A DNA stretch of 47,003 nt, taken from a virus. The position numbers and the translations under genes were made by a program. Positions 9,601 to 39,558 of this stretch are shown here, in pieces. The first letter of the stretch is position 1. Each line of letters opens with the position of its first letter. The stretch lies in the IMG/VR virus record IMGVR_UViG_3300042474_000227, positions 1-47,003 of that record; one strand, given 5' to 3'. A model generated the notes under the pieces. The model was not told the origin of the DNA, did not search any database, and saw only the letters and a program-made list of their open reading frames with translations.

Positions 9601-12600
9601 CATCCCTCGTTCTGCCTTAAATGATGATGCACTTACAGCAACAGAAATCAAATCAGGTTCAGTAACCGCATCGGTATCTCCAAATTTTGGATTTAGAGTA
9701 CAATCACAAATAAGTGGTTCTGAATTTACTGGTAGTGTTTCAATTAGTGGTAGTTTAGAAATAATAGCAACATCTGGCTCTTTAATATTAGCATCATCAT
9801 CCGCATACTATGGAGAAGGTACTTATTTAAGAAACATACCTCGTTCAGCTTTAACACCGGATGCATTACTTTCTACGCTTATAGCTAGTGGTAGTGTAAC
9901 CGCATCGGTAGCACCTAATACTGGATTTGTAGTAAATTCATATTCTACAATTAGTGGTAGCCTTATTGTATCATCATCAGCAAGAGCAATGCCTAATTCT
10001 GATATAGATACTGTATTTATTGTAACAAATGAGGGTAGTGGTCTTTATAATATAAGTAATAAATTAGTAAGTGGTTCGAATCCAACATTAACTTTAGTTA
10101 GAAATGTAGAATATACTTTTAATGTTAATGCTAGTGGACATCCGTTTTGGATTAAAGAAACACCTGGTACTGGTACTGGAAACTCATATGATTATTGGGT
10201 AACTAATAATGGTGAAGACACTGGTGTAATAACATTTTTAGTTTCAGGAAGTGCACCTGATACATTATATTACAACTGTCAATTACATTTATCAATGGCA
10301 GGTACAATCGATGTAGTAGATGCATTGTATGTACCAGCTGAAATAACATTAATTGGTGATACAAAAGTAGTTGGAGTAGTAACAGCATCTGTATTTAGCG
10401 GTAGTGGTAAAGGTTTATTTGATATACCTCGTTCAGCATTATCGGAAGAAGTATTCCGTATTGCAAGTGGTAGTGTAAGTGCATCTGTATCTCCTGATTT
10501 TGGATTTAGAGTAGAATCATTTGAGAGTGGTTCTGATTTTAGTGGAAGTATTAGAATTGATTCATCTTCATTCTTATATGCCGTAGGTACTTACTTAAGA
10601 CAAATTCCTAGAGCAGCATTAACCGAAGATGCATTAATATCAGCTGAAATTAAATCTGGTTCAGTAACAGCATCAGTTTCTCCTGATTATGGATTTAGAG
10701 TTATTACTCCATTTACATCTTCAATTGATGAGAACGGATATTTTACTACACAAATTGGTTCTCAATTTACTGGTTCTATTGATGTTAGTGGAAGTTTATT
10801 TATAAATGACGTAAGTGGGGGTGTGTATATTGCATCATCTTCATTCTTATATTCAGATGGTACTTATTTAAGAAATATACCTCGTTCAGCATTAACCGAA
10901 GATGCATTAGTTTCAACCGAAATTAAATCTGGTTCAGTAACAGCATCTGTTTCTCCTGATTATGGATTTAGAGTAATAACTGATAAAACAGGTTCACAAG
11001 TAGCAGCTCAAATTACTGGCTCGGTTGATATTAGTGGTTCATTAACTGTTAAAGATTTTATATTTGGTGATGGTAGATTTATTACAAATGTACAAGCCGC
11101 AGCGGCTCCATTTATTGGTAGTGGTTCTGCAACGGCATCGGTAGCAGATGGTGAACGATTTGTAGTAACAACTGCAAAGACTGGTTCTGAAATAGGTTCT
11201 GAATTTACTGGTTCTGTTGAAATTAGTGGTTCATTAATTGTATCTAACTTTTTAATTGGTGACGGTACTTTTATTACAAATGTAGTAGCTGCAGCATCTC
11301 CTAAAATTGCTAGTGGAAGTGTAACCGCATCCGTATCTCCTAATTTTGGATTTAAAGTAGAAACACAAGCAACTGGTTCTGGGATTGGTTCTCAATTTAC
11401 TGGTTCTATTTCAGTTAGTGGAAGTATTCAAGCATTTACATATTTTGGAGATGGTTCTAATTTAACAAATGTAGCTGCAGCAGCTGCACCAAGAATAGCA
11501 TCTGGTTCTGTAACTGCATCGGTAGCACCTAACACTGGATTATTAGTAAACTCATATGTAAACATAAGTCAAACTGTTCCATCATCATCTGCTGGTTTAA
11601 TTGTAAGTGGAGCAGTTTACATAAGTGGTTCAATAACAGCTTCTCGTTATGATGGAGATGGTGGGGGATTATTTAATATCCCAGCATCAGCACTTAAAGA
11701 TTTACAATTAGATAAAATACAATCTGGTTCTGCTAGAGCAATAATAGACCCAACAAAATTAGATGTAAACGTACCAATTACGGCAGCACTTTATATAGGT
11801 GATGGTGGTGGTTTGTTTAACATTCCTGCAAATGCATTGGAAGATTTGCAATTAGATAGAATTAAATCTGGTTCTGTTGAAGCTGTGATTTCTCCTAATT
11901 TGGGTTTAGTAGTAAATACAAAAGCAAGTATATCACAATCATTAGCGGTTAGTGGCGGATTATTTGTAACTGGTGGTAATATTATATTGAACGGAAGTGG
12001 TTCTACCTTCGTTGGTGATGGTAGTGGATTATATAATATTACAATTGCTAATTTAGCATTTGAAACATCTATAATGAAATCGGGCTCATTTACGGCATCA
12101 ATTTCACCTGATAAAGGATTTGTTGTAAATACATCCGCATCTATTTGGGGAAATCTTTATGTTGGTGATAATTTAAGAGCAACAACTATAACTGGTAGTA
12201 CTCAAATATATTCTCCAATAGTAAGTGGTGGTTTATTGGGTACATACACATATCAAGGAAATGGACCAACTGCATCTGCGGAATATGATATTTTGAGATT
12301 TGATGAAAATAGAGGACATTATATTCCTCAACCTGAAACTTCATTAACTGAAACTGTATCGTTTAATAATGTAAGTAGTTTAACTATTGTACATAATTTA
12401 GGGATTAGATATCCAATGGTACAGGTTTACGCCACTGGTTCGGAAGACCAAATTTTACCAGGTACAATAAAATCAATTGATGATGATACTATTCAAATTG
12501 TATTTAGTGGATTGACAAGTGGGCATGTGGTAATTGGTAGTGGTGGTTCTTTGATTAGTGGTACAATAGAAGGTGGTAGAGTTATTGGTACGGTATTATC

Positions 12601-15600
12601 AGCATCATTTGCACAGGTTGCTGGAACTGCTAATAGTCTTGTTGGATTTGATTCTGCATCATTATCCGCATTAGGTGATTTACAAAACTTTGTAAGAAAT
12701 TCACAAACATCATCAATGGCGGTGTTTAGTGCAGTAAGTTCTTCTTACGCATTAACCGCATCATACGCATTAAACGCAGGTGTAGGTAGTGGTACTGAAT
12801 TATTTATATATCAAACAAGTTCATTAGTAAAAGCACAAGTAGGAAAAATTCATTTTACTGGTTCTGGTGTTGATGTAATATCATCTGGTTCGGATGGTGT
12901 ATTGGTAACGATATTAGGTGGTGGTGGTGGAGTAACATCATTAACCGCATCGTATGTTGCATCATCTGATGTTGATGGGCCTTTGGGAATGGATAGTATA
13001 ACCTTTGCAAGAACTGCATCTTATGCATTATTTGCATTAAATACTCCATCATCTGATACATCATCATTCTTACAAATTAACACAGACCAAACAATAAACG
13101 CATCACTTACAATTAGTGGTAGCTTGGGTGTTACTGGTAGTAGTTTTTTAACTGGACCGGTTATAGCAAATAGTTCTATACAATTAAATAACTTACCAAC
13201 AGGTTCATCGGAAGAAGTTGTAATTTGGAATAGTGTAACAAAACGATTAGAAAGAAGAAATATAGCAGCAGCAGTTGGTTCTTCTGGTACAGGTGGTAGT
13301 AGTGGTACTACTGGTTCATCTGGTTCATCTGGAAGTAGTGGAACTTCTGGAACATCTGGTTCATCTGGTTCATCTGGAAGTAGCGGAACATCTGGTACTT
13401 CTGGTTTAGATGGTACATCAGGAACTTCTGGTTCATCTGGTACATCTGGAAGTAGCGGAACATCTGGTACATCCGGTTCATCTGGAACTTCTGGCACATC
13501 TGGAAGTAGTGGTACATCGGGAACATCTGGTTCATCTGGTACGTCTGGAACATCTGGTTCTTCTGGTACATCTGGAAGTTCTGGTTCATCTGGAACGTCT
13601 GGTACAAGTGGTAGTAGTGGAACTTCGGGAACATCTGGAACATCTGGGTCAACTGGTTCATCTGGAACATCTGGGTCATCTGGTACATCGGGTTCTTCTG
13701 GAACATCTGGTACATCCGGTTCTTCTGGTACATCAGGTACATCAGGATCATCTGGTTCATCGGGAACATCTGGTACATCTGGAACTTCTGGTTCAGCTGG
13801 TTCGTCTGGTACATCTGGAACTTCTGGTTCTACGGGTTCATCTGGTAGTAGCGGTTCGTCTGGAACTTCTGGTACATCTGGAACGTCTGGTTCATCCGGC
13901 TCTGCTGGTAGTGGTGGTTCTGCTGGTTCTTCTGGTTCAAGTGGTTCTGGTGGTACTACTGGTACAGGTGGTAGTGGTGGTTCATCTGGTACATCGGGAA
14001 CTTCTGGAACATCTGGAACTTCTGGTACTAGTGGTACAAGCGGTAGTAGTGGTACATCTGGTTCGGATGGACAATCTGGTACATCTGGTACATCTGGTAC
14101 GTCTGGAGAAGATGGCACATCTGGTAGTAGTGGAACTTCAGGAACTTCTGGTTCAACTGGTTCAGCTGGTTCTTCTGGTACGTCTGGTATAGATGGAACT
14201 TCTGGTACATCGGGAACTTCTGGTTCAGCTGGTTCATCTGGAACTTCTGGTACATCTGGTTCTACTGGTTCATCTGGAACTTCTGGCACATCCGGAACTT
14301 CTGGTTCGGCTGGTTCATCTGGTTCATCTGGAACTTCAGGAACATCTGGTACTGATGGTTCTGCTGGTACAACGGGTTCATCTGGAACTTCGGGAACATC
14401 TGGCACAAGCGGAAGTGGTGGTACATCGGGAACTTCTGGAAGTAGTGGTACTTCGGGAACATCTGGTACTGATGGTTCTGCTGGTACAACGGGTTCTTCT
14501 GGAACATCTGGAACTTCTGGTACATCGGGAACTTCTGGAACTAATGGAACTTCTGGTTCAGCAGGTTCTTCTGGAACATCTGGTACTGATGGTTCTGCTG
14601 GTACAACGGGTTCATTTGGAACTTCTGGTTCTTCTGGAACTTCCGGAACTAATGGTTCATCGGGAACATCTGGTACGGACGGAACATCTGGAACGAGTGG
14701 AACATCTGGAACTGATGGCTCGGCAGGTACATCTGGTTCATCGGGAACTTCTGGAACATCTGGAACTAATGGTACATCTGGAACATCTGGCTCAGCAGGT
14801 TCTGCGGGTTCGTCTGGTTCAGCAGGTTCGTCTGGTTCTACTGGTTCATCTGGAACTTCTGGTACAAGCGGTACATCTGGTTTAGATGGTACATACTTCG
14901 GTTCATCCGGAACATCGGGAACATCTGGTACAAGCGGTACATCTGGAACAAGCGGTACATCTGGTACATCTGGTACATCTGGTGTTGATGGCACATTTAA
15001 TGGTAGTAGTGGAACGTCTGGAACATCAGGAACATCGGGTACATCGGGAACTTCTGGTTCTAATGGTACGGCTGGTTCATCTGGAACATCTGGAACATCT
15101 GGACAAGATGGTACATTATTTGGTAGTAGTGGAACAAGTGGTATATCTGGTACGTCTGGAACTTCAGGTACTTCGGGAACTTCTGGAAGTAGTGGAACGT
15201 CTGGCACATCTGGTGTTGATGGTACATTTAATGGAAGTAGTGGAACGTCTGGAACATCAGGAACATCTGGCTCAGCTGGTTCGGCTGGAACTTCTGGCAC
15301 ATCGGGTTCATCTGGAACATCTGGAACATCTGGACAAGATGGAACTTTATTTGGTAGTAGTGGTACAAGCGGACAAAGTGGAACATCTGGTTCAGCTGGT
15401 TCATCGGGAACGTCTGGAGCGTCTGGTACTAACGGCTCTGCTGGAACGTCTGGAACATCTGGTTTAGACGGAACTTTATTTGGTAGTAGTGGTACATCTG
15501 GAACATCTGGGACATCGGGAACTTCTGGTTCAAGTGGTACATCAGGAACATCTGGTACATCTGGACAGGATGGTACATTATTTGGAAGTAGTGGTACAAG

Positions 15601-16921
15601 CGGAGAAAGTGGTTCATCTGGGTCATCTGGCTCAGCTGGTTCATCTGGAAGTGGAGGTTCGTCTGGAACATCTGGAACATCAGGTACTTCCGGATTAAAT
15701 GGTACATTCTTTGGAAGTAGTGGAACTTCTGGTTCTTCTGGAACATCAGGTACATCTGGTTCGACGGGTTCATCTGGAACATCGGGTAGCGGTGGTTCTT
15801 CTGGTAGTGGTGGTTCATCTGGTACATCGGGAACTTCTGGTCTTAATGGAACTTTCTTTGGTAGTAGTGGTACATCTGGTACATCGGGAACTTCTGGAGT
15901 AAGTGGTAGTAGCGGTACATCAGGAACAACCGGTTCAGCAGGTACAACAGGTTCATCTGGTACAACGGGTTCATCTGGTGTTAATGGTACAATGTTTGGA
16001 AGTAGTGGTACAAGCGGAACGTCTGGTGTTTCTGGTTCAAGTGGTGTAAGTGGTTCATCTGGAGTAAGCGGTTCGTCTGGTACAACGGGTTCATCGGGAA
16101 CATCTGGCGTAAATGGTACAATGTTTGGAAGTAGTGGTACTTCGGGAACTTCTGGTACAGGTATATCTGGTACATCTGGTACATCGGGTGTAACTCCTCC
16201 TGGTATGACTTCGGGAACATCTGGACAAGATGGAACTTTATTTGGTAGTAGTGGTACATCTGGGAATAGTGGAACTTCTGGTACAACACCTCCTGGTATG
16301 ACTTCGGGAACATCTGGATTGGATGGTACATTATTTGGAACATCTGGTACATCTGGGCTAGCTGGTACATCTGGTACAACGCCAGCAGGTATGACATCTG
16401 GAACGTCTGGTACATCTCAATTCCCAATAGCTGGAAATACTGATAATGGTTTATTAACATATGATGTAGCAACTGTTGGAGCAAACGTAGAAGCTAATAT
16501 TACATTTAATGGTTCTACTTTAACAATCATAGGAAGTACAACTCAAACTGGCGATGTAAATGTAACAGGAGCAGTAACAGCAACTACATATGTAGGTTCA
16601 ACAACATTTAGAGAAACATTTAGTGATTTGGGAGCTGGTGGTAGTGCTACTTTAGACCTATCAACCGCTAATAACTTTAGAAGACAATTCAATGCAACCG
16701 CAACAGTAACATTTAGTAATCCACCAGCATCAAACGCATTTGGATTTACTTTAGTAGCTGTAAATGCTGGAGCATATGCAATAACATGGCCGGCATCGGT
16801 AGATTGGGCTGGTGGAACTGCCCCAATATTAACTGGAGCTGGTGTAGATGTTTTGGTATTCTATACTTATAATGGTGGAACTACATACTACGGATTTGTA
16901 ACGGGTAAAAATTTAAGTTAA
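6662..16921 (+). CDS. Giant collagen-like tail fibre with cupredoxin-like domains
   Basis: 3419 residues. Residues ~1-1830 contain 22 copies of a beta module with consensus SGSVTASVSPN-GF-V, usually followed by GSQFTGSLFVSG and by FSGSGAGLFNIPRSAL. Two inserted domains (residues ~502-610 and ~1110-1225) have a cupredoxin look, with ligand sets H548/C594/H597/M600 and H1160/C1206/H1209/M1212. Residues ~2205-3252 are an almost unbroken Gly-X-Y repeat (SGT, SGS). The last ~165 residues form a beta-rich tip domain with TYVGSTTFRETFSD and a VDWAGGTAP segment. The protein has the layout of a very long trimeric fibre: shaft, collagen-like rod, tip. It is expected at the tail or baseplate, binding host surface or moderating attachment. 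The motif at residues ~138-165 (VIYSSGSNIFGDAENDKQEF) is nearly repeated in the second giant fibre. Its function as a fibre is inferred from composition and position. Confidence 0.8.
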   Translation: MAISNLLTGRVRVVSPKNVTADRYQFIDLSQVEPNLGVPDFSASLLTNPALVVSDSDGNRGFARTISLDQISGSFSGSFQGDGSNLTGVKADVSPQISSGSATASISPDRGLQINVDTTILGNLYVSQSIIADQLIVNIISSSVIYSSGSNIFGDAENDKQEFTGSVQIQSELIVNTVTGSSFSGSFTGSFFGDGRNLFNLPEATKLASGSVTASVSPNTGFVVTSIASGSTFTGSLFVSGNVVIPSGSGFFSGSGAGLFNIPLSALNIESLVSNRIASGSATASISPNRGLVVNTTITASMYSGSGKGLFDIPISALSQEVFRIASGSVTASASPNFGFRVQSSTVGSQITGSLFVTGNIELGVGAYYSGSGEKLFNIPRSALTPDALVATLIGSGSVTASTSPDFGFRVESFQSGSQFTGSLFVSGARGIEIVSGSSFSGSGARLFDIPVSALRDLDLTRIRSGSATASISPNNGLEVNIFSSFTGSMIVSASVKYLPSQSIQTVFNVTNTGVNFYTFSGAAEGNNPTLTLVRGITYTFNLNASGHPFYIKTAPGTGTGNQYTTGVTNNGDDVGVITFAVPANAPSMLYYQCQLHSAMVGTINIVDAIVQRDSGVLIYGDEVISGSLNVKDVVRAREFTGSISSSFIQGDGSGLYNIPRSAFTGDSFRIASGSVTASVSPIVGFKVETSVTGSEIGSQFTGSVAVSGSVTASFFIGDGSRLINITVPPQVATRITTGSITASVDINRGFRVEATTIGSEFTGSIRVSGSVEISSGSSFSGSGARLFDIPRTALTPDALLTTFIASGSVTASVSPNVGFDVKSSLLGSRFSGSIFANNGIRLMSGSFSGSGRELFDIPVAALSDLDTSKIFSGSATASVSPNRGFEVFTATSRFYGSVSASVFSGSGAGLTNIPFSALSQELFRIVSGSVTASVSPEDGFKVVSTLSGSQFTGSLFVTGGFIRVATGSFFSGSGAGLLNIPRSALNDDALTATEIKSGSVTASVSPNFGFRVQSQISGSEFTGSVSISGSLEIIATSGSLILASSSAYYGEGTYLRNIPRSALTPDALLSTLIASGSVTASVAPNTGFVVNSYSTISGSLIVSSSARAMPNSDIDTVFIVTNEGSGLYNISNKLVSGSNPTLTLVRNVEYTFNVNASGHPFWIKETPGTGTGNSYDYWVTNNGEDTGVITFLVSGSAPDTLYYNCQLHLSMAGTIDVVDALYVPAEITLIGDTKVVGVVTASVFSGSGKGLFDIPRSALSEEVFRIASGSVSASVSPDFGFRVESFESGSDFSGSIRIDSSSFLYAVGTYLRQIPRAALTEDALISAEIKSGSVTASVSPDYGFRVITPFTSSIDENGYFTTQIGSQFTGSIDVSGSLFINDVSGGVYIASSSFLYSDGTYLRNIPRSALTEDALVSTEIKSGSVTASVSPDYGFRVITDKTGSQVAAQITGSVDISGSLTVKDFIFGDGRFITNVQAAAAPFIGSGSATASVADGERFVVTTAKTGSEIGSEFTGSVEISGSLIVSNFLIGDGTFITNVVAAASPKIASGSVTASVSPNFGFKVETQATGSGIGSQFTGSISVSGSIQAFTYFGDGSNLTNVAAAAAPRIASGSVTASVAPNTGLLVNSYVNISQTVPSSSAGLIVSGAVYISGSITASRYDGDGGGLFNIPASALKDLQLDKIQSGSARAIIDPTKLDVNVPITAALYIGDGGGLFNIPANALEDLQLDRIKSGSVEAVISPNLGLVVNTKASISQSLAVSGGLFVTGGNIILNGSGSTFVGDGSGLYNITIANLAFETSIMKSGSFTASISPDKGFVVNTSASIWGNLYVGDNLRATTITGSTQIYSPIVSGGLLGTYTYQGNGPTASAEYDILRFDENRGHYIPQPETSLTETVSFNNVSSLTIVHNLGIRYPMVQVYATGSEDQILPGTIKSIDDDTIQIVFSGLTSGHVVIGSGGSLISGTIEGGRVIGTVLSASFAQVAGTANSLVGFDSASLSALGDLQNFVRNSQTSSMAVFSAVSSSYALTASYALNAGVGSGTELFIYQTSSLVKAQVGKIHFTGSGVDVISSGSDGVLVTILGGGGGVTSLTASYVASSDVDGPLGMDSITFARTASYALFALNTPSSDTSSFLQINTDQTINASLTISGSLGVTGSSFLTGPVIANSSIQLNNLPTGSSEEVVIWNSVTKRLERRNIAAAVGSSGTGGSSGTTGSSGSSGSSGTSGTSGSSGSSGSSGTSGTSGLDGTSGTSGSSGTSGSSGTSGTSGSSGTSGTSGSSGTSGTSGSSGTSGTSGSSGTSGSSGSSGTSGTSGSSGTSGTSGTSGSTGSSGTSGSSGTSGSSGTSGTSGSSGTSGTSGSSGSSGTSGTSGTSGSAGSSGTSGTSGSTGSSGSSGSSGTSGTSGTSGSSGSAGSGGSAGSSGSSGSGGTTGTGGSGGSSGTSGTSGTSGTSGTSGTSGSSGTSGSDGQSGTSGTSGTSGEDGTSGSSGTSGTSGSTGSAGSSGTSGIDGTSGTSGTSGSAGSSGTSGTSGSTGSSGTSGTSGTSGSAGSSGSSGTSGTSGTDGSAGTTGSSGTSGTSGTSGSGGTSGTSGSSGTSGTSGTDGSAGTTGSSGTSGTSGTSGTSGTNGTSGSAGSSGTSGTDGSAGTTGSFGTSGSSGTSGTNGSSGTSGTDGTSGTSGTSGTDGSAGTSGSSGTSGTSGTNGTSGTSGSAGSAGSSGSAGSSGSTGSSGTSGTSGTSGLDGTYFGSSGTSGTSGTSGTSGTSGTSGTSGTSGVDGTFNGSSGTSGTSGTSGTSGTSGSNGTAGSSGTSGTSGQDGTLFGSSGTSGISGTSGTSGTSGTSGSSGTSGTSGVDGTFNGSSGTSGTSGTSGSAGSAGTSGTSGSSGTSGTSGQDGTLFGSSGTSGQSGTSGSAGSSGTSGASGTNGSAGTSGTSGLDGTLFGSSGTSGTSGTSGTSGSSGTSGTSGTSGQDGTLFGSSGTSGESGSSGSSGSAGSSGSGGSSGTSGTSGTSGLNGTFFGSSGTSGSSGTSGTSGSTGSSGTSGSGGSSGSGGSSGTSGTSGLNGTFFGSSGTSGTSGTSGVSGSSGTSGTTGSAGTTGSSGTTGSSGVNGTMFGSSGTSGTSGVSGSSGVSGSSGVSGSSGTTGSSGTSGVNGTMFGSSGTSGTSGTGISGTSGTSGVTPPGMTSGTSGQDGTLFGSSGTSGNSGTSGTTPPGMTSGTSGLDGTLFGTSGTSGLAGTSGTTPAGMTSGTSGTSQFPIAGNTDNGLLTYDVATVGANVEANITFNGSTLTIIGSTTQTGDVNVTGAVTATTYVGSTTFRETFSDLGAGGSATLDLSTANNFRRQFNATATVTFSNPPASNAFGFTLVAVNAGAYAITWPASVDWAGGTAPILTGAGVDVLVFYTYNGGTTYYGFVTGKNLS
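6950..12130 (+). repeat. 22 beta modules (SGSVTASVSPN-GF) in fibre shaft
   Basis: Twenty-two copies of a short signature, SGS[AV]TAS[VI]SP-x-x-G[FL]-V, are spaced unevenly through the shaft, most followed by an NIPRSAL or NVAAAA turn. The most divergent copies are 8 (TTGSITASVDINRGFRV), 17 (SVADGERFVV) and 20 (SARAIIDPTKLDV). A 23rd copy lies at the start of the second giant fibre (about 19225). Two neighbouring copies (about 10650-10700 and 10930-10980) are nearly identical, which suggests a recent duplication. Confidence 0.8.
13276..16416 (+). repeat. Gly-X-Y (collagen-like) repeat coding region, ~1045 residues
   Basis: A 9-base unit encodes GTS/GSS triplets with glycine at every third residue. 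Proline is almost absent, so the geometry is collagen-like but there is no Pro/hydroxyproline stabilisation. Synonymous codons are freely mixed (gga/ggt, aca/act/acg, tct/tca/agt), so the copies are held at protein level. From ~14880 on, 13 interruptions of the form [LVQ]-[DN]-G-T-x-[FN]-G insert one extra residue and shift the glycine phase. Three T-P-[PA]-G-M-T-S-G breaks lie near the end. Confidence 0.9.
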
Positions 16922-18954: not shown

Positions 18955-21900
18955 ATGCAGAATTTAGGTAATAATCCTAATGGTTTAAATCAACTAAGCG
19001 CAAGTTTAGTTTCTTTGTTTGTAAGTGGAAGTAGAATAGCTAACTTTTCATCTGCATCTGGAATTCAGATTGATAAGGTTGGTACATTTTCCAATACAAC
19101 ACTTGAAATAACGGCTAATACAAAAATTAGTGGTTCTATTACCGCATCATTGTTTAATGGTGATGGTAGTGGATTGTTTAATATTAATGCCGCAGCAATT
19201 GGTGATTTAGATAGGATAAAGTCAGGTTCAGCAACAGCAATAATTTCTCCAAATAAAGGTTTAGTAGTAAATACCGATTTAACAGTAGCAGGTACAATAA
19301 ATGCAACCGAATTAAAAGTAACTTATATATCATCATCAATAATCTACGCAAGTGGTTCATCTAAATTTGGTGATGCACAAAATGATAAGCAAGAATTTAC
19401 TGGTAGTGTAAATATAACTGGTTCATTATTTTTTGGAACAGGTTCTTTAAGGCAAGATATAACAACTGAAGAAGTTTTAGTTTATAATGTAACAACTGGT
19501 AGGATTGGCATTAAAACTTCAGCAGCATCATCTGGAACATCTGGAACTTCTGGAACTTCTGGAACTTCTGGTACATCTGGCACTTCAGGAACTTCTGGCA
19601 CTTCAGGAACTTCTGGCACTTCAGGAACTTCTGGAAGTAGTGGTACGAGTGGTTCTTCTGGTACAAGCGGTACATCAGGAACTTCTGGCACATCTGGAAC
19701 TTCAGGAACTTCTGGAACATCTGGCACATCTGGTACAAGCGGTACATCAGGAACATCTGGAACTAGAGGTACATCAGGAACTTCTGGCACATCGGGAACT
19801 TCTGGAACATCTGGCACATCGGGAACATCTGGTGTGAGTGGTTCATCTGGAACATCTGGGTCATCTGGAACTTCTGGTACATCTGGAACTTCTGGAAGTA
19901 GTGGTACATCGGGAACATCTGGAACATCTGGATTAACAGGTACAAGTGGTACATCCGGATTGACAGGGACATCTGGAACATCGGGATTAAGTGGAACGAA
20001 TGGTACATCGGGAACTTCTGGAATAAGTGGAACGGCAGGTACATCAGGTACATCAGGAACATCTGGTACATCTGGTACAAGTGGTGTAACCGGTGCGGGT
20101 GGTGCAGGAGGTACATCTGGAACTTCTGGTTCTTCTGGAACATCTGGGTCTTCAGGAACATCTGGTACATCAGGCACATCAGGAACATCTGGAACATCGG
20201 GAATTAGTGGAGCTGGTGGTGTGAGTGGTACGGCTGGAACTTCTGGTACAAGCGGTACATCTGGCACATCGGGTACATCTGGGACATCTGGAACGCGTGG
20301 TACATCGGGAACTTCTGGAACATCTGGAGTAAGTGGTACGGGTGGTTCTTCTGGGACTTCAGGTACATCTGGAACATCTGGAATCAATGGAAGTAGTGGA
20401 ACAAGTGGTACATCTGGCACATCTGGAACATCGGGTACATCTGGAACATCTGGCACAAGTGGTACATCTGGTATAGGTAGTAGTGGTACATCGGGTACAT
20501 CTGGAACATCAGGAACAAGAGGTACATCCGGAACGTCAGGTACATCGGGAATAAATGGTAGTAGCGGTACATCTGGCACATCTGGAATAAATGGTAGTAG
20601 CGGTACATCTGGCACAAGTGGAACATCTGGCACAAGTGGCACATCTGGAATTAGTGGAAGTTCGGGAACATCTGGCACATCAGGTACATCGGGAACTTCT
20701 GGTACTTCTGGAACATCGGGAACATCTGGGATATCAGGAACATCTGGAACTTCTGGAACATCAGGTACATCCGGTACACGTGGAACTTCTGGAACATCGG
20801 GAACTTCTGGTACAAGTGGAACATCAGGCACATCGGGAAGCAGTGGAACTTCAGGAACTTCTGGTACATCCGGAACATCTGGTACATCTGGGGTTAATGG
20901 TAGTGATGGAACATCTGGCACATCAGGAACTTCTGGAACATCTGGCACATCGGGAACATCTGGAACTAGAGGTACATCCGGAACTTCTGGCACATCGGGA
21001 ACTTCTGGAACATCTGGCACATCCGGAACAAGAGGTACATCTGGGACATCAGGAACATCAGGTACATCTGGAACATCAGGAACTTCTGGAACATCTGGTT
21101 CATCAGGAACTTCTGGATTATTATCATTAACTGGTACAACTGATAATGGTGTAATCACATTAAACGGAACTGCACCAAATGCAACCGTTGAAGCAAATTT
21201 AAGATTCGATGGTACTACATTGGCAGTAACTGGTAACGCTACAATTAGTGGTGACCTTACTGTAAGTGGTACAACAACATATATTAATACAACAACTTTA
21301 AATGTAGGTGATAATATCATCACATTAAATGCAGATATTGGAGCATCAACCGCACCAACTGAAAATGCTGGTATAGAAGTTAAGAGAGGTAATGCAGCAA
21401 CAAAAGCATTTTATTGGGAAGAAGCAAATGATAGATGGTATGCTGAAGATGGATTGTATGTAGCTGGTAACGTAGTTCTTAGTGGAACTGTTGATACGGG
21501 ACAAGGTGCAACTGAAGTTTACTTAATGAATCAGAATGTTCGTACAACCGATTCGGTAACATTTGCAAACGTAACTTCAAACTTAACTGGTACTGCTGAT
21601 AGAGCAGAAGCTGTTGATTCAAATGATACTAGAAATGTAAACGATACTCCTTCAAGTAAAAATGCTGGAGTTTATTTTGATTTTAAAACAAATAGTGTAA
21701 ACGGATTAAGTGATGGTGGTACATATAACGGACAAATGTTTTGGCGAAGTTATGGTAGTAGTACTGATTTAAGTGGAGGATATCCAATACAAATAGCATA
21801 TACTGCAAATGGTAGAATATGGAGTAGATTGGGAACATCATCATCAGCATGGGCTTCTTGGCAACAAATATTAAATAGTGTTGACCAAATTTACGCTTAT

Positions 21901-24900
21901 AATATGAATCAGTATGTAAGAACTACTGATGCACCTACATTTGCTGGATTAAATTCAACTGATACTATAACGGTTAAGAGTAATGGTACTCCATCTGGTG
22001 TAAGAGCATTTAACGCAGATTCTGTTCTTAGACTTCAAAATACAAATAGTAATAACTATTTAGAATTTAGAAATCAAGCTGATACTGGAACTTATGGTGG
22101 TATTTTATTTACTGATAATAATGTTGGAGGTTATATCGCATTTAGAACATATGTAGGTAGTGGAGCTAACAATGGAACAAACGGAGATTATATGATATAT
22201 GGTACTTACACAGACCATATATTCCAAGCCGGCAGTTCTGAAACAGTAAATGGAAAGAGTGAAATATTTAGAATGTATGCTAATGGTGATGTAAGAGCAC
22301 AAGGTGGTATGTATGCAACTATATATTACGATTCCGCTGATACTACATATAGATTTAACGGAGATGGTTCATCTGTTTTAAATGAATTAACTACATTTGG
22401 TTCTACAACTATTAGAAACAATTATAATACAGGTCAAAATTTAAAACTCAATCTAAACGATTCTGGTGCATATGGTTTAGTTGATTTCCAAGAGAATGGT
22501 TCACATAAAGGATTTTTTGGATTGGGTGGAACTACACAATCATTTGGTACATATGCAGCATATACCGCTGATGGATTTAGCTGGAATCATGATGGTACTG
22601 GTAAAATAATTATTGCCAATAGAGGTACATCAAAACGAATTGATTTAAACACTGGTGCGGAGGGTAGTACCAATTTTACAACAATAAGAATGACGAATCA
22701 GAATGTGTATATAACACCTGATTCAAATACTGGTACTTTAGATGCACCTATATTTAGAGAATTAACAAGTACTGGATATTATTTAGACCCATCAAGTACT
22801 GGTACTTCATTAAATACGGCGGGTTCTATACGAGGTTCGTATTATGTAGCAAGTAATTATACCAGCACCGGATACACTCAATATAAAGGCTATGACAATA
22901 ATAACCATTTTATAATGATTAGAGGTAGGGTAACTGGCAACACAACATCTCCTACTTATACTGGTTATCATAGAACATCATTAGTAGAATACGCTGAAGG
23001 AAATGATGATACTGGATGGTTTTTTCAAACTGCGGCTACTGGTAATTATGATATTGTAGCTAGAATAACACGTTCATATTCTCAATTTGAATCAAGCCTT
23101 AGAGCACCTATATTTTATGATTCCGATAATACTGGTTTTAGAATAGACCCTACGGATTATTCATATGTAAGATATTTTAAAGTTAGAAGTAGTGGAAGTT
23201 CTTCTGGAACTAGAGCATTGACGGTACATGATGAATCTCAAGGTGAAATAAACTTTGGTACTTATCCTGGTGCTTGGACTTCCGCAGTTCAAATCCAATC
23301 TAATAACAACGCCACTTACATGTGGATGTCACCATTGACTGGATATAATGGTAGATTTTATATGGCTGGTGCTGGATTGGACATATATACTGAAGGCAAC
23401 GGATTGTCTGGACAATTTTACAATGGACAATTTAGAACTGGATTTATTTACGATTTCAATGATACGGGTACATACTTAGACCCTAATGGATTTAGTAATT
23501 TATATAATAGTGGTTTAGTTGCAACATTTACAAAATTAAGTACATCTCCAAATAGTAGAGCAGTTCAATTTGCAAATAATCAGGGTGATAACTCTTGGGG
23601 TATTGTTGGTGAATTTAGAGTTAATGGTTCTCCTGGTACGGATAGACCATCAATCTTATTCTCTAATGGATTTGATAGTAATACTTGGTCTTGTGGATTT
23701 GGTTACGCAGATTCTTCTTATTTTAGAATTAATCACGACCACGGCCATAGAAATGGTTCTTGGGGTACTACGGATTTCTATGTTGATAGAGGTGGTAACT
23801 CATATTCAAATGGTAGTTCTAGAGCACCAATATTTTATGACCAAAATGATACTGGTAGATATATGGACCCAACCGGTCAATCGTATATTGTTAATTTATG
23901 CGTTGGTACAAATAACTATAATCACGGATATCCTGGCGTACTTCAAATTGGTAGTACATCATACAACTATAACTTTAATAATGGTAGTTGGGCGGGTAGT
24001 ATTACAACTGGTATATTAGCAAACTGTGCAGATGAATGGGAGTTTTCAATACATGATAGTGGAACTTCGGTTGAATCTGTATTCATATACTCTGGTGGAA
24101 GAATATTAATGGGCAGAAGTATTGGTTGGGGTACAACTTATATAGAAGCAGCTGAATCGTTCAGAGCACCTATATTCTACGATTCCAACGATACCGGATA
24201 TTACACAAACCCCAATGGATATTCACAAATGTCAGCTGTATGGGCAAACAACTGGTTTAGACCTCAAGGATGTTGTGGATTGTATTTTGAATCATATGGA
24301 CAGGGTATTTGGAGTGTATTTTGTGAGGGTAGTCCTTATGGTCACACATCAACTTATGGTGGTGGTAGAAATGGATGGTATGGATACGCTATTAGTAGTA
24401 GATACTGTTTTATGAGTACAACGGGTGATAACTGTGGTGTACATGATACTGCTAGAGGTTGGATTTGGTATATGAGTGGAGCCGAACTAAACCTTTATTG
24501 GGCTGGAAACCGTAGAATTGTAACTACTAGTTGGGGTTCTTATTACGATGGATATACGGAAGTAGGTGGTTCTTCAAGAGCCCCAATATTCTACGATTCA
24601 AACGATACGGGATATTATTTAGACCAAAATACAACTTCAAATGATGCATTAAGAATTAGAGGTGGTGCGTTACATGGACCTAACCCATCTTGGGGAGCAT
24701 ATTTTAGAAGTGGATGTAATGGTAGAGTAGATGGTTGGGCATCCGTTGAAACAACCAATGGTAACCTACATATGGATTGTAGAGATGGATATGAAACTTA
24801 TATCAATCACTATAATGGTAATAGAACTTATTTGTATGAAATAAGAACAAACTTTATTTATGATAGAGATAATACTGGATATTATTCTGACCCGAATGGT

Positions 24901-25362
24901 ACATCTCGTATAAACTATGCTATACATGATAACGTTTATTCATATAGCTGGATTTTCTCTCAAAATAACATCATCGCTTATTACTCAGATGAAAGATTGA
25001 AAACTAATTTAGGACCAATTGAAAATCCATTAGATAAAGTGAATCAACTTAATGGATTCTACTATATTGAAAATGATTTAGCACGTTCATTTGGATATAC
25101 GGATGAGAAAGTTCAAGTGGGTTTATCAGCTCAGCAAGTTCAAGCAGTATTACCGCAAGTTGTAACTCTAGCTCCGTTTGATATGGATATAGATAACGAA
25201 ACTAAAGAGATTAAAGGTTCTAAAACTGGTGAAAACTATTTGACTGTTGATTACGAAAAGATAGTACCTCTATTAGTAGAAGCTATAAAAGAACTTAGTG
25301 AGGACTTAAATAAAACAAAAGCTGAAGTTAAGGAATTACGAAAATTGATAGAAGAAAAATAA
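18955..25362 (+). CDS. Second giant collagen-like fibre ending in S74 self-cleaving chaperone
   Basis: 2135 residues. The N-terminus (1-190) repeats shaft modules of the 3419-aa fibre, including SIIYASGSSKFGDAQNDKQEF. Residues ~193-721 are a Gly-X-Y repeat. Then follow beta segments (NVGDNIITLNADIG; residues ~770-860), a knob-like part with GYPIQIAYTANGRIWSR (~930-980), and seven or eight APIFYDSNDTGYYLDPNG repeats (~1120-1990). The C-terminus is a peptidase S74 intramolecular chaperone: SDERLKTN (S2011, K2016), then GLSAQQVQAVLPQ and TVDYEKIVPLLVEAIKEL with a coiled-coil tail. In this family the chaperone trimerises the fibre and cuts itself off at the serine, here leaving ~125 residues free. 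This is probably the main receptor-binding fibre. The S74 assignment is strong. Confidence 0.85.
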   Translation: MQNLGNNPNGLNQLSASLVSLFVSGSRIANFSSASGIQIDKVGTFSNTTLEITANTKISGSITASLFNGDGSGLFNINAAAIGDLDRIKSGSATAIISPNKGLVVNTDLTVAGTINATELKVTYISSSIIYASGSSKFGDAQNDKQEFTGSVNITGSLFFGTGSLRQDITTEEVLVYNVTTGRIGIKTSAASSGTSGTSGTSGTSGTSGTSGTSGTSGTSGTSGTSGSSGTSGSSGTSGTSGTSGTSGTSGTSGTSGTSGTSGTSGTSGTRGTSGTSGTSGTSGTSGTSGTSGVSGSSGTSGSSGTSGTSGTSGSSGTSGTSGTSGLTGTSGTSGLTGTSGTSGLSGTNGTSGTSGISGTAGTSGTSGTSGTSGTSGVTGAGGAGGTSGTSGSSGTSGSSGTSGTSGTSGTSGTSGISGAGGVSGTAGTSGTSGTSGTSGTSGTSGTRGTSGTSGTSGVSGTGGSSGTSGTSGTSGINGSSGTSGTSGTSGTSGTSGTSGTSGTSGIGSSGTSGTSGTSGTRGTSGTSGTSGINGSSGTSGTSGINGSSGTSGTSGTSGTSGTSGISGSSGTSGTSGTSGTSGTSGTSGTSGISGTSGTSGTSGTSGTRGTSGTSGTSGTSGTSGTSGSSGTSGTSGTSGTSGTSGVNGSDGTSGTSGTSGTSGTSGTSGTRGTSGTSGTSGTSGTSGTSGTRGTSGTSGTSGTSGTSGTSGTSGSSGTSGLLSLTGTTDNGVITLNGTAPNATVEANLRFDGTTLAVTGNATISGDLTVSGTTTYINTTTLNVGDNIITLNADIGASTAPTENAGIEVKRGNAATKAFYWEEANDRWYAEDGLYVAGNVVLSGTVDTGQGATEVYLMNQNVRTTDSVTFANVTSNLTGTADRAEAVDSNDTRNVNDTPSSKNAGVYFDFKTNSVNGLSDGGTYNGQMFWRSYGSSTDLSGGYPIQIAYTANGRIWSRLGTSSSAWASWQQILNSVDQIYAYNMNQYVRTTDAPTFAGLNSTDTITVKSNGTPSGVRAFNADSVLRLQNTNSNNYLEFRNQADTGTYGGILFTDNNVGGYIAFRTYVGSGANNGTNGDYMIYGTYTDHIFQAGSSETVNGKSEIFRMYANGDVRAQGGMYATIYYDSADTTYRFNGDGSSVLNELTTFGSTTIRNNYNTGQNLKLNLNDSGAYGLVDFQENGSHKGFFGLGGTTQSFGTYAAYTADGFSWNHDGTGKIIIANRGTSKRIDLNTGAEGSTNFTTIRMTNQNVYITPDSNTGTLDAPIFRELTSTGYYLDPSSTGTSLNTAGSIRGSYYVASNYTSTGYTQYKGYDNNNHFIMIRGRVTGNTTSPTYTGYHRTSLVEYAEGNDDTGWFFQTAATGNYDIVARITRSYSQFESSLRAPIFYDSDNTGFRIDPTDYSYVRYFKVRSSGSSSGTRALTVHDESQGEINFGTYPGAWTSAVQIQSNNNATYMWMSPLTGYNGRFYMAGAGLDIYTEGNGLSGQFYNGQFRTGFIYDFNDTGTYLDPNGFSNLYNSGLVATFTKLSTSPNSRAVQFANNQGDNSWGIVGEFRVNGSPGTDRPSILFSNGFDSNTWSCGFGYADSSYFRINHDHGHRNGSWGTTDFYVDRGGNSYSNGSSRAPIFYDQNDTGRYMDPTGQSYIVNLCVGTNNYNHGYPGVLQIGSTSYNYNFNNGSWAGSITTGILANCADEWEFSIHDSGTSVESVFIYSGGRILMGRSIGWGTTYIEAAESFRAPIFYDSNDTGYYTNPNGYSQMSAVWANNWFRPQGCCGLYFESYGQGIWSVFCEGSPYGHTSTYGGGRNGWYGYAISSRYCFMSTTGDNCGVHDTARGWIWYMSGAELNLYWAGNRRIVTTSWGSYYDGYTEVGGSSRAPIFYDSNDTGYYLDQNTTSNDALRIRGGALHGPNPSWGAYFRSGCNGRVDGWASVETTNGNLHMDCRDGYETYINHYNGNRTYLYEIRTNFIYDRDNTGYYSDPNGTSRINYAIHDNVYSYSWIFSQNNIIAYYSDERLKTNLGPIENPLDKVNQLNGFYYIENDLARSFGYTDEKVQVGLSAQQVQAVLPQVVTLAPFDMDIDNETKEIKGSKTGENYLTVDYEKIVPLLVEAIKELSEDLNKTKAEVKELRKLIEEK
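19531..21117 (+). repeat. Gly-X-Y repeat coding region, ~529 residues
   Basis: The same GTS triplet rod as in the first fibre, but more uniform. Variation is limited to substitutions such as GTR, GIN, GLT, GVS and GIS that keep the glycine phase. The one-residue DGT-x-[FN]-G interruptions of the first fibre are absent, except for a single GIGSSG break near 20470. Confidence 0.88.
22740..24910 (+). repeat. FYD-N-DTGYY-DPNG tandem fibre repeats
   Basis: Seven clear copies of [AF]-x-I-[FY]-Y-D-x-[ND]-[ND]-T-G-x-Y-x-[DN]-P within the second giant fibre, spaced roughly 250-500 bases apart, plus a diverged one near 22330 (YYDSADTTYRF). The stretches between them are variable, rich in aromatic residues, Gly and Cys, and probably carry the binding surfaces. 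Confidence 0.8.
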
Positions 25363-37427: not shown

Positions 37428-37784
37428 ATGGATATAAGTAAATATACGGTAATTCCAAGCGGAAGGGATGAGATTGATAATATTACTACTATAATTGTAC
37501 ATATACCAACTCCGGATGAGTTTGATTACAAAAGGGGTTTTATAGAAAGATATTTTGCTCAAAAAGTAAATGATCCTGACTCATTTATATATGAGATAGA
37601 TTCCACAATATATCAAAATGTTTTAATAAGTCCATTTTATAAATCAATAATATTAAAATGGAAAATAAGCGGAGATGCCGATAAAGCTAGAGAATCAAAT
37701 AAAGCATCAATAAGATTGGCTTCATCTGATATGAAAGCACTTATATTATATCTTCCAAATTATTTACAATTTCATCAACCTTAA
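37428..37784 (+). CDS. Hypothetical protein at end of baseplate operon
   Basis: 118 residues, 16 bases after the hub-like gene, so it is part of the same unit. The sequence has a beta-rich first half (YTVIPSGRDEIDNITTIIVHIPTPDEFDYKRGFIERYFAQK) and a helical Ala/Ser-rich part (DKARESNKASIRLASSDMKALILYLPNYL). Similar short proteins seem to be conserved in this phage group, but I recognise no domain. Position suggests a small baseplate or assembly protein. The tmRNA promoter begins right after its stop codon. Confidence 0.6.
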   Translation: MDISKYTVIPSGRDEIDNITTIIVHIPTPDEFDYKRGFIERYFAQKVNDPDSFIYEIDSTIYQNVLISPFYKSIILKWKISGDADKARESNKASIRLASSDMKALILYLPNYLQFHQP

Positions 37785-37816
37785 TTTGGTGGATTGGATT
37801 ATTTTTCGTATATTTA
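37785..37816 (+). promoter_or_regulatory. Bacteroidota-like promoter for tmRNA (TTTG-N20-TATATTTA)
   Basis: TTTG at 37785-37788, directly after the previous stop codon, is exactly 20 bases from TATATTTA at 37809-37816. This is the host consensus TTTG-N20-TAnnTTTG with the last G changed to A, the form shared with the phage's recurrent motif. It lies 14 bases before the mature tmRNA 5' end, so a short leader must be trimmed. Confidence 0.65.
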
Positions 37817-37830
37817 CATAAACAAACTTG

Positions 37831-38214
37831 GGGGGTGCCTTGGAATTGATTGTGATGAGAATGGTAGTATCACACGTAGACAGAAGTGCTAGATGTCTTT
37901 AAATCTGTACAAAACAATAACTGACGAAATGTCAACTATGACCTTTGATTCTATGATGGAATTCATTGGTGCATCTGAGTACGCATACGCTGCTTAGTTC
38001 ATTCCGCATCACTCGTGGAACATTTAAATAGAAGTGAATAAAACGGAGCTCTACCTATCGGCTCTTAAAAACTGATAGGTTGGTGGAAAGCTGTACTAAC
38101 CATACGGCCCCAATTATTTTGGAAAGTTAATAAGATTAAACTTTATCCTAAACGTGTAATTCGTTGGTATTACGATTACTTTGCAAGACATGGGTTCGAA
38201 TCCCATCACCTCCA
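37831..38214 (+). ncRNA. ssrA: Phage-encoded tmRNA (ssrA)
   Basis: A 384-base RNA with tRNA-like ends. The acceptor GGGGGTG (37831-37837) pairs with CACCTCC (38207-38213), giving G3-U70, the alanine identity pair, and A73 follows; CCA is not encoded. The T arm is ATGGG-TTCGAAT-CCCAT (38190-38206). A D-like segment TGGAATTGAT replaces the usual TGGATTCGAC. P2 is a long interrupted helix: 37850-37855 with 38181-38186, 37860-37869 with 38168-38177, and 37872-37877 with 38152-38157. A clear pseudoknot has GAGC/GCTC (38046-38049 with 38061-38064) and ACCTATC/GATAGGT (38053-38059 with 38074-38080); another uses 38080-38084/38095-38099 and 38090-38094/38104-38108. The tag frame ends in EFIGASEYAYAA with TAG at 37995-37997. 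It would rescue stalled ribosomes and tag their products for proteolysis. The resume codon is not fixed. Confidence 0.9.
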
Positions 38215-38219
38215 CAATA

Positions 38220-38259: not shown

Positions 38260-38268
38260 GTATCTTTG
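38237..38268 (+). promoter_or_regulatory. Consensus Bacteroidota promoter for DNA polymerase gene
   Basis: TTTG (38237-38240), exactly 20 bases, TATCTTTG (38261-38268): a perfect match to TTTG-N20-TAnnTTTG. The ATG is only 6 bases downstream, so transcription probably starts at or next to the start codon, giving a leaderless or nearly leaderless mRNA. This suggests expression by unmodified host RNA polymerase, i.e. early. Confidence 0.85.
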
Positions 38269-38274
38269 TATCCT

Positions 38275-39558
38275 ATGATAATTGTTGAGTCTATTGATGA
38301 ATTAAACGAATTGAGTGTAAAGCTGGAGACCGAAGCTTCCATTTGGTATCCTATGTGGGTGGATAATGATAAGCACCCTAATAACACTCATATATCGTTT
38401 ATATTCGTTAGAACCCAATCGGACAAGTATATACTACCACAACAACATACAGACGCTCTATCACTCTCTAATGAGCAAATATGTGGGGTACTAAATACTA
38501 CCGGAGAAAAATGGGTATTTCAAAAGAAAAAGCTACTACAATCTTTTACGGATGTAAGGGAAGGCTTGAATGATGTTGACACTGCTTATTTCTTAAAGCA
38601 TGGTAAAACAATAGACTACTCTCAACCAATACAACACTTAGTGGCTCCCTTTATTCATAAGGGTTACAAAGAGGACATCATTCAATCCATTCCCATTCTC
38701 AAATTGTGTGAAGCAATTGAAAACGAACTTGGTAAATCAATCAATCAGAAATCTAAAACTTATAATTGGTATAACGATATTTTTATACCAACCTTAGCCC
38801 GAATTGAACAAATAGGAATCCGTGTCGATAGGGAAAAATTTATTGATAGATGGCCACAAGCTTCCAAACAGCTTTCACCCGATAATTTAGTGTTTACGGA
38901 ATATAATCCATTTACGGTGACAGGTAGACCATCTAATAGACATGGTGGTGTGAACTATGCCGCCCTCAACAAAACGGATGGTAGTAGAGAATGTTTTGTA
39001 TCGGATGGAATTTATCTACAAATGGATTATAACGCATATCACCCAAGACTAATTGGTAAGTTGATTAAGTTCCATATGCCGGAAGGAAATGTACATGAAT
39101 GGTTGGCTGAACAATATGGATGTGATGTGAACGAAGGAAAGGGAATTACGTTTCGTTTATTATATGGTGGTATTGATGATGATTTTCGCCAAATTCCATA
39201 TCTTAATTCGGTAGCTGATTACATTGATAACCTATGGATTGAAACACAAAAGAGTGGATTCCTACAAACACCACATAGAGAAATTCCGTTGGATTGGATT
39301 GAACAGCCTAACCCACAAAAAGTATTCAACTATCTACTTCAAGCGGTAGAAACTGAAATGAATGTGGATAAGATGAGAACGATATTGGATTATATTAAGG
39401 GAAGTGGAATTACATTGGATTTATATACCTATGATTCGTTTCTTTTTGATGTTCCTACTGATGTTGACCCGAATATGATTAAGGATTTGAAGGATATCAT
39501 TGAAGAAGGTGGTTTCCCGATAAAAGCAAGTTGGGGATTAGATTACGGAAAGTTATAA
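38275..39558 (+). CDS. Compact family A DNA polymerase
   Basis: 427 residues from ATG 38275; an upstream TTG at 38266 lies inside the -7 box and is rejected. Motifs of the Pol I family appear in order: a pre-palm segment PTLARIEQIGIRVDREKF (~175-200), the TGRPSN..GGVNYAAL region (~222-240), motif A DYNAYHPRLIG with catalytic D251, motif B K289 through F and Y297-GG, and motif C with YD (D387) where HD is usual. The N-terminal ~170 residues carry no recognisable exonuclease acidic residues. It is therefore a short polymerase that may depend on a separate proofreading protein. T4 itself uses a family B enzyme. Other Bacteroidota-related myoviruses such as RM378 are known to split these activities. 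Expressed from its own consensus promoter. Confidence 0.8.
   Translation: MIIVESIDELNELSVKLETEASIWYPMWVDNDKHPNNTHISFIFVRTQSDKYILPQQHTDALSLSNEQICGVLNTTGEKWVFQKKKLLQSFTDVREGLNDVDTAYFLKHGKTIDYSQPIQHLVAPFIHKGYKEDIIQSIPILKLCEAIENELGKSINQKSKTYNWYNDIFIPTLARIEQIGIRVDREKFIDRWPQASKQLSPDNLVFTEYNPFTVTGRPSNRHGGVNYAALNKTDGSRECFVSDGIYLQMDYNAYHPRLIGKLIKFHMPEGNVHEWLAEQYGCDVNEGKGITFRLLYGGIDDDFRQIPYLNSVADYIDNLWIETQKSGFLQTPHREIPLDWIEQPNPQKVFNYLLQAVETEMNVDKMRTILDYIKGSGITLDLYTYDSFLFDVPTDVDPNMIKDLKDIIEEGGFPIKASWGLDYGKL

Follow-up and report, generated by a model that had tools for sequence, protein, structure and literature searches.

Introduction

Alanyl-tmRNA and SmpB together enter stalled ribosomes, where a tag is attached; the AA end of this tag is read by ClpX. 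The G3-U70 pair in the P1 stem is the alanine identity determinant of tmRNA, and the ssrA tag of Mycoplasma and Mesoplasma is long. When moved to E. coli, the tag of Mesoplasma florum was reported to be read specifically by its own Lon (PMC9097571). This parallel of mechanism, in which determinants of the tag itself would switch the protease, comes from a gene on a bacterial chromosome, not on a phage.

ssrA/tmRNA genes are also known on phage genomes (PMC4131195, PMC9004378, PMC7162821, PMC8776804, PMC11590407). The carriers include mycobacteriophages, Bacillus phage G, Melnitz and other marine phages, huge phages, Cellulophaga phage Calle and Maribacter phage Panino. The tag of the phage G tmRNA has 13 residues, compared with 24 for the gene described here. 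A 2022 count gave tmRNA in 402 of 18,146 phage genomes (PMC9004378), so an earlier sequence-only reading of our locus, which had called phage tmRNA genes known but rare, was right on the first point and overstated the second. tmRNA genes are used as integration sites, which is how the copy in the Maribacter phage has been explained (PMC11590407). In the papers examined, phage tmRNAs are mostly counted or listed, and reading their tags could provide evidence on how phages handle stalled proteins. No conserved family of long phage tags was described in the literature searched, which covered few subscription journals or preprints. Thus phage tmRNAs as such are already known, and the conserved long-tag family reported here appears to be a new variant.

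The chromosomal ssrA genes of Bacteroidota resemble the phage gene in matching RF00023, in the resume region, in the start of the tag frame and in the tRNA-like ends. They differ from it in their tags, which have 9-10 residues as opposed to 23-26 in the phage genes, lack the S[ST]xT module described below and stop earlier.

A full-length tmRNA gene in the window

The analysed window consists of positions 1 to 47,003 (47,003 bases) of the IMG/VR virus record IMGVR_UViG_3300042474_000227. The sole gene called in it by ARAGORN was a tmRNA (Table 1). In a cmscan of the whole window against 4,227 Rfam families, only RF00023 (tmRNA) reached its gathering score, matching at 37831-38217 over the full model length with 79.4 bits against a gathering score of 47 (E 2.8e-29). 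The discriminator A, at which the sequence-only reading had ended the gene (38214), is followed by CAA instead of CCA. Both programs thus called a full-length tmRNA, which bears out the earlier view that this is a real phage tmRNA and not a tRNA fragment. The gene had also been placed correctly between baseplate and DNA polymerase genes, with a baseplate wedge gene (PHROGs) upstream and a phrog_17 polymerase-like gene downstream. As judged from its sequence, it is very probably a working phage tmRNA that uses the SmpB of its host.

Table 1. Features in and around the phage tmRNA gene (window coordinates)
Feature	Position	Strand	Basis
118-aa gene adjoining the baseplate genes	37428..37784	+	homologue upstream of tmRNA in 48/161 loci
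Possible Bacteroidota-type promoter TTTG-N20-TATATTTA	37785..37816	+	one mismatch to TAnnTTTG
One-piece tmRNA gene, CCA tail not encoded	37831..38215	+	ARAGORN; RF00023
P1 acceptor stem, 5' side GGGGGUG, contains G3	37831..37837	+	Rfam match; alignment of 38
Innermost P2 helix, 5' side	37871..37877	+	99.2% of cells paired; partner 38152-38158
Pseudoknot PK1	37878..37910	+	stems 37878-37882/37894-37898 and 37886-37889/37907-37910, read from the sequence
Tag reading frame, 24 codons + TAG: DEMSTMTFDSMMEFIGASEYAYAA	37923..37997	+	ARAGORN; resume region aligned
Conserved tag module STMTFDSMMEFIG	37932..37970	+	family comparison; absent from host tags read
C-terminal degron-like tag end ASEYAYAA	37971..37994	+	family comparison
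Small hairpin GCA-UACGC-UGC in the last tag codons	37983..37993	+	kept in relatives, synonymous paired changes
Innermost P2 helix, 3' side	38152..38158	+	covariation in alignment of 38
T arm AUGGG-UUCGAAU-CCCAU	38190..38206	+	100% of cells paired; 4/5 pairs change on both sides
P1 acceptor stem, 3' side CACCUCC, then discriminator A 38214	38207..38213	+	Rfam match; alignment
DNA-polymerase-like gene, downstream	38266..39558	+	phrog_17, E 1.4e-8; immuto DNA polymerase A, 25.4% identity

The tmRNA fold is conserved in related phages

We aligned 38 phage genes, including that of the window, taken from 45 representatives (~82% identity) of 154 genes. Four representatives were excluded for outlying length (L079, L111, L162 and L258) and three with no stated criterion (L127, L149 and L251). 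The structure tested comprised P1, the inner P2 helix, PK1 and the T arm, and was partly read from the window. Standard pairs filled 91.0% of cells, compared with a shuffled mean of 75.4%, and changes on both sides of a pair were seen in 160 cells, compared with a shuffled mean of 50.5; neither value was reached by any of 500 shuffles. Versions of the same structure with slid partners paired only 34-60% of cells, an excess that is partly built in because the structure was partly read from the window, whereas the compensating changes are not built in. One of the five measures, further pair types, was not above chance (43 versus 41.5 in shuffles, reached by 163 of 500). Without guidance, RNAalifold predicted P1, the inner P2 helix, the T arm and small hairpins in the tag from the 38 genes, with changes on both sides in 15 of 29 pairs.

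The tRNA-like ends, P1, the T arm, P2 and PK1, all of which had been proposed from the window by itself, therefore hold in the alignment, and the paired positions are conserved in related phages. The G3-U70 pair was GU in all 38 genes. PK1 forms in the window and was the weakest element: 72% of cells were paired in stem 1, and stem 2 reached 95% in one piece and 66% in the other. Gaps in this part of the alignment, numerous in stem 2, account for some of this weakness. The hairpin in the last tag codons (GCA...UGC or GCU...AGC, alignment columns 177-187) showed changes on both sides in 13 of the 38 genes, and one of its pairs was AU in 22, UA in 12, GC in 1 and something else in 3. This shows that the nucleotide conservation of the tag is partly structural.

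The sequence-only reading had made no mention of a long conserved tag and had placed the interest of the gene in its odd D segment, seen as a divergence that might suit phage conditions. This could not be upheld: relatives vary at this place (TTGAT, TTGAC, TCGAC and TCGAT), some host genes likewise read TTTGAC, and the segment looks like ordinary drift. The pseudoknot region between the tag and P2 (alignment columns 200-400) appeared mosaic by eye, with identical blocks in otherwise dissimilar genes, which suggests recombination among phage tmRNAs.

A family of long, two-part phage tags

The resume region of the window, CAAUAACU^GAC, aligned with those of relatives and hosts, and the frame following it remains open for 24 residues, ending in ...EYAYAA before a TAG stop. 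Across the family, a module of roughly S[ST][MWF]T[FWY][ED][DS]xMx[FW][VIM]G is followed by an ordinary ...YAxAA end (DYAVAA, EYAYAA or similar). Tags of this family had 23-26 residues in all 154 genes that were directly framed by ARAGORN. These genes, at least 154 before de-duplication, fell into 62, 40 and 27 clusters at 90, 80 and 70% identity, respectively, and at least 134 distinct genes with a window-type tag were present in IMG/VR after removal of identical ones. Even a relative whose neighbouring protein is only 46% identical (L009) has the tag ADVELSTMTFGDAMAWMESFDYAVAA at the same place.

Scans of viral sequences with the back half and the front half of the tag returned at least 120 and at least 119 stretches, respectively. 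Over all loci, a window-type tag was found in 207 of 209 places among the matches listed, the other two, L271 and L291 from the front-half scan, being chance reading frames that were dropped. A tag-blind scan was run with the last 25 tmRNA bases of the window as query, and so favours relatives. It returned 51 stretches in which ARAGORN called 37 one-piece and 7 two-piece tmRNAs, and 36 of the 37 one-piece genes carried a window-type tag, the remaining one having a different tag of 25 residues. The VN-type tags that ARAGORN gave at ten tag-blind loci were misplaced frames, since the five that were aligned (L028, L030, L034, L035 and L050) have the long tag at the resume site. Six of the ten frames were corrected by script and four, in which the script frame was shifted on the same DNA, by eye. 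Similarly, ADYAVAA in L168 turned out to be the end of a long tag.

The long tag was not found in bacterial genomes

RF00023 matched in 294 of 296 genomes from the phylum of a Bacteroides genome, with 277 over the cut-off. We read the tags of the 30 best of these loci and three others, a sample in which divergent host tmRNAs are under-represented because the best-scoring Rfam matches were taken. ARAGORN gave host tags of 9 or 10 residues (GENNYALAA, GEYNYALAA, DNNYSYSLAA and similar) in 32 of the 33 Bacteroidota loci and made no call in the remaining one; the window, with its 24 residues, falls outside this host type. Phage and host genes share the position of the resume codon, and the stop codon is shifted by ~44 nt, from ~123 nt into the host gene to ~167 nt into the phage gene. 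With the resume codon shared, the phage tag resembles a host tag into which a module has been inserted rather than a displaced frame.

The pattern ED-x-M-x-F-x-GAD[YF]A, which fits 83 of 122 phage places and leaves DD and DS variants outside, had no match in 84,980 prokaryote genomes. Relaxing it to the end ADYAVAA* gave six places in prokaryote genomes, one of them a tmRNA, namely a Spirochaetales gene with the 11-residue tag ANNNADYAVAA. The front half, ST..[DE][DE], had no match in 395 Bacteroidota genomes. In 50,697 phage records, neither DNA similarity to the tmRNA nor, at E up to 10, two variants of the window-family tag peptide were found, and one variant gave no match in 72,556 plasmids at the same limit. 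As a positive control, the 36-residue frame of the phage LR756508 was recovered at E 3e-17, showing that short tags are detectable by peptide search. The long tag is therefore conserved among phages, and the searches of bacterial genomes did not recover it, a contrast suggesting that phages rewrite the labelling of half-made proteins.

The tag is conserved as a peptide

The pN/pS ratio of the tag was about 0.3-0.5 overall. Among the matches listed, it was 0.30 for 84 distinct 21-codon tag cores and 0.36 for 13 distinct cores of a longer class that includes the window; these codon counts omit seven places whose sequence stops short of the module start. Positions 1, 4, 9 and 11 were S, T, M and F in all 84 distinct cores, position 8 was A, L, V or M and the last residue was A in all 84, and position 7 was D in 80 (among the matches listed). 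Across the same cores, the codons of conserved residues that have degenerate codons varied.

The scan patterns fixed some of the residues described, and we therefore repeated the analysis on the half of the tag that each scan had left unsearched. Among the matches listed, the free front halves from the back-half scan (8 codons, 37 distinct) gave a pN/pS of 0.39. In these, position 4 was T in all 37, position 3 was M, W or F in all 37, and position 7 was D in 35 and S in 2. The free back halves from the front-half scan gave 0.36 (26 sequences) and 0.52 (only 12), again among the matches listed. Of 72 places found by the front-half scan alone (among the matches listed), 69 stop after 11-12 further codons, two are chance frames and one runs off its contig; the tag ends in AA in 67 of the 71 that have a frame, and two of the rest are the chance frames. 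Taken together, these results showed that the tag is conserved as a peptide and is under constraint.

T at position 4, D at position 7 and the flanking hydrophobic residues fit a capping box and a hydrophobic staple. The module looks like the start of a short, capped amphipathic helix, with T (rarely N or S) as N-cap and mostly D three residues on. This cap is not uniform across window-type tags. The window itself carries S at position 7 in place of the usual D, and so do 5 of the 13 distinct longer-class cores. At position 4, the tag-blind sample has N or S at three directly read loci and at four that the script read out of frame; these exceptions lie in the group of L030 and L034.

Other phage tags and a second long-tag family

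A generality scan, likewise tag-blind, for tmRNA-like 3' ends returned at least 117 new loci with at least 86 tmRNAs, 40 one-piece and 46 two-piece. Among the matches listed, 32 of the 40 one-piece tags had 16 residues or fewer and 8 had 21 or more, so short phage tags predominate, with long ones in the minority. Among the tags of at least 21 residues, that of L341 belongs to the window's family, those of L373, L377 and L392 to a second family, and that of L323 is probably spurious.

The second family has the module QxxANM[NS]KV[FY]SL followed by an AVAA-type or similar end, mostly in tags of 24-33 residues. Scanning for this family returned 72 stretches, of which 49 lie in loci where a tmRNA was called; 38 distinct genes are represented. 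One tag of this family matched 29 records of cultured Flavobacterium phages with 60-80% identity (tblastn), and the other tag tried gave no match in phage records. In Flavobacterium phage Fpv20 (Fipvunavirus, KU599886), an unannotated tmRNA missed by ARAGORN lies at L496:2375-2789 with 58.2 bits against the Rfam threshold of 47, and its frame ends in ...NAQVEANMNMAFSLIREDVAVAA, the second long-tag type; the other 28 records were matched by tblastn only. The second family thus shares with the window an inner module and an AVAA-type or similar end, and its module, compared by eye, is unlike that of the window. At least two unlike modules therefore precede the same kind of tag end in phages.

A candidate third long-tag type was seen in GNTTIWDLINGTAVAESVDELALVA (L063:1229-1635) and GNTNFWSLVNAGVSTPVTEELLAA (L395:2223-2591), both over the Rfam cut-off. 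In the 484-kb phage LR756508, the tmRNA at L185:1501-1947 has at the usual place the 36-residue frame, which is unrelated to the window's tag, where ARAGORN gives a different tag of 8 residues. A second RF00023 match in this phage, of only 112 bases (L187:1501-1612, 58.2 bits), may be a copy of the tRNA-like domain only.

Host and genomic neighbourhood

The tail and baseplate genes near the tmRNA encode sheath, tube and baseplate wedge (PHROGs), and the order upstream is the wedge gene, an 895-aa gene and the 118-aa gene, the latter two without a family. The nearest named relatives of the sheath protein belong to three phages, one recorded from Microcystis (48.5%), an uncultured huge one (44.1%) and Flavobacterium phage immuto (39.9%), and the only named relatives of the polymerase-like protein come from the same three. 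The named phages whose sheath proteins match best have genomes of 160-484 kb, so the window is probably part of a larger genome. The closest named sheath relative was thus recorded from Microcystis, which is not a Bacteroidota host. The motif TTTG-N15-23-TAnnTTTG, which we take to be a Bacteroidota-type promoter, stood upstream of 21 of 123 family members, compared with a mean of 0.35 and a maximum of 3 in base-shuffled sequences; the window has a near match only. The Flavobacterium phage relatives of sheath and polymerase, together with this enrichment, make the earlier assignment of the window phage to a Bacteroidota host likely. A scan for intrinsic terminators and sigma-70 promoters around the tmRNA gene gave nothing above chance.

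The gap between the homologue of the 118-aa gene and the tmRNA was mostly 24-51 bases (28 of 29 measurable loci). Of 17 loci with this gene or a relative of it, 15 have no tmRNA and 27-114 bases to the next frame, and two have a tmRNA and 455 and 481 bases. With short gaps where the tmRNA is absent and long ones where it is present, the tmRNA is gained and lost behind the same 118-aa neighbour in related phages.

Proposed role of the tag and alternatives

We propose that, when phages degrade host messages, stalled ribosomes would accumulate and a phage copy of tmRNA would help. A host enzyme would charge this tmRNA with alanine through G3-U70, host SmpB would load it, and it would free ribosomes stalled on broken messages during infection. 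It would add the 23-26-residue tag, in which the conserved module precedes an ordinary ssrA-like end. The module would most likely dock a host or phage partner, which could be an adaptor or an unfoldase of the Clp or Lon type, and would thereby alter the route or rate by which tagged proteins are disposed of; a docking site is proposed because a helix before a degron is what would be expected of a site for an adaptor or unfoldase. As a whole, the probable reading on balance is that this tmRNA works with the SmpB of the host and appends a tag in two parts, probably a docking helix and a degron, which alters the place or speed of degradation of tagged proteins. That tagged proteins would actually be rerouted through the module is plausible but stops short of probable. 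More speculatively, Bacteroidota phages might repeatedly have evolved their own trans-translation label, in which a lineage-specific module leads to a phage-chosen partner and to disposal separate from host ssrA; we regard this as rather unlikely. Such a partner may be a phage ClpP, a re-targeted protease of the host, or the small phage protein whose gene adjoins the tmRNA.

Conversely, the tag could serve to rescue ribosomes while being degraded poorly or slowly by the host, with V or Y before the AA and the module shielding the end. V precedes the terminal AA in 65 of the 84 distinct cores (among the matches listed) and Y does so in 6 of the 13 longer ones, where most of the host tags read have L. 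This explanation is nevertheless improbable, as the terminal AA is kept in the free halves (67 of 71 framed places, among the matches listed), several family members end in YALAA, and selection only against proteolysis need not preserve an inner peptide. That the long frame acts as RNA, replacing P5 and spacing the pseudoknots on the ribosome while the peptide has no role, would fit the shifted stop codon and the hairpin with its compensating synonymous changes. However, differences are two to three times as frequent at synonymous as at nonsynonymous sites, module residues stay constant while their codons vary, and two phage families preserve two different modules, all of which make a role in RNA alone quite improbable.

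A change of protease in the manner of Mycoplasma and Mesoplasma, with the long tag read by Lon and not by ClpXP, has an analogue in the M. florum tag described above, and aromatic and hydrophobic residues abound in the phage module. Its probability is equally low, given that the phage tag retains a ClpX-like end and that Bacteroidota keep ClpXP. The gene could also be a captured host ssrA without any special role, either cargo or the remnant of an integration site, as has been put forward for the Maribacter phage copy, and the presence or absence of tmRNA after the same neighbour is consistent with this. We consider it very improbable: no integrase was found among the window proteins scanned (10 with PHROGs and 9 with Pfam; the window probably represents only part of a genome), the gene is complete, is kept across 27 clusters at 70% identity and has a constrained peptide, and no host gene with a window-type tag was found in the genomes searched.

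If, as in the docking-module reading, the module redirects tagged proteins, viruses would control the fate of rescue products besides translation rescue. Each module would then be a probe for a protease adaptor in Bacteroidota, and phage modules would be candidate orthogonal degradation tags. The question of long tags is testable now because the second family has relatives in cultured Flavobacterium phages.

Candidate partners among phage genes

SmpB was found in none of 49 phage records, of which 46 are IMG/VR records of the window's family; most of the 49 are probably fragments, and none of them showed a self-sufficient phage tmRNA-SmpB pair. ClpP was present in 3 of 21 IMG/VR records of the window's family, or in 5 of 24 when the three named phages are added, and the two named phages that have ClpP lack a window-type tag. 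Phage ClpP was therefore discarded as a universal partner of the module. The ClpP-like peptidases (L493:3362-3904, L494:3144-3686 and L495:8434-8976) lie 3.6-3.8 kb upstream of a long-tag tmRNA on the same strand, and similar small genes stand between the two in all three contigs. In one of these contigs, the tmRNA was missed by ARAGORN and detected by Rfam.

The small protein of ~105 aa encoded beside the tmRNA in another subgroup gave a confident structure model (pLDDT 85.6). An SmpB- or adaptor-like fold found no support, as no solved structure matched at E up to 0.001; the matches within this limit were six uncharacterised phage proteins, and hints of a UvrB/C motif were weak and below the cut-off. 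The gene of this protein (L493:7168-7542, L495:4601-4939 and homologues) stops exactly 5 bases short of the tmRNA at 11 of 17 loci, and relatives of it occur near phage ClpP. Elsewhere in the window, a very long reading frame of 3,419 codons lies at 6662-16921, and another of 2,135 codons with long GTSGTSGTS repeats lies at 18955-25362.
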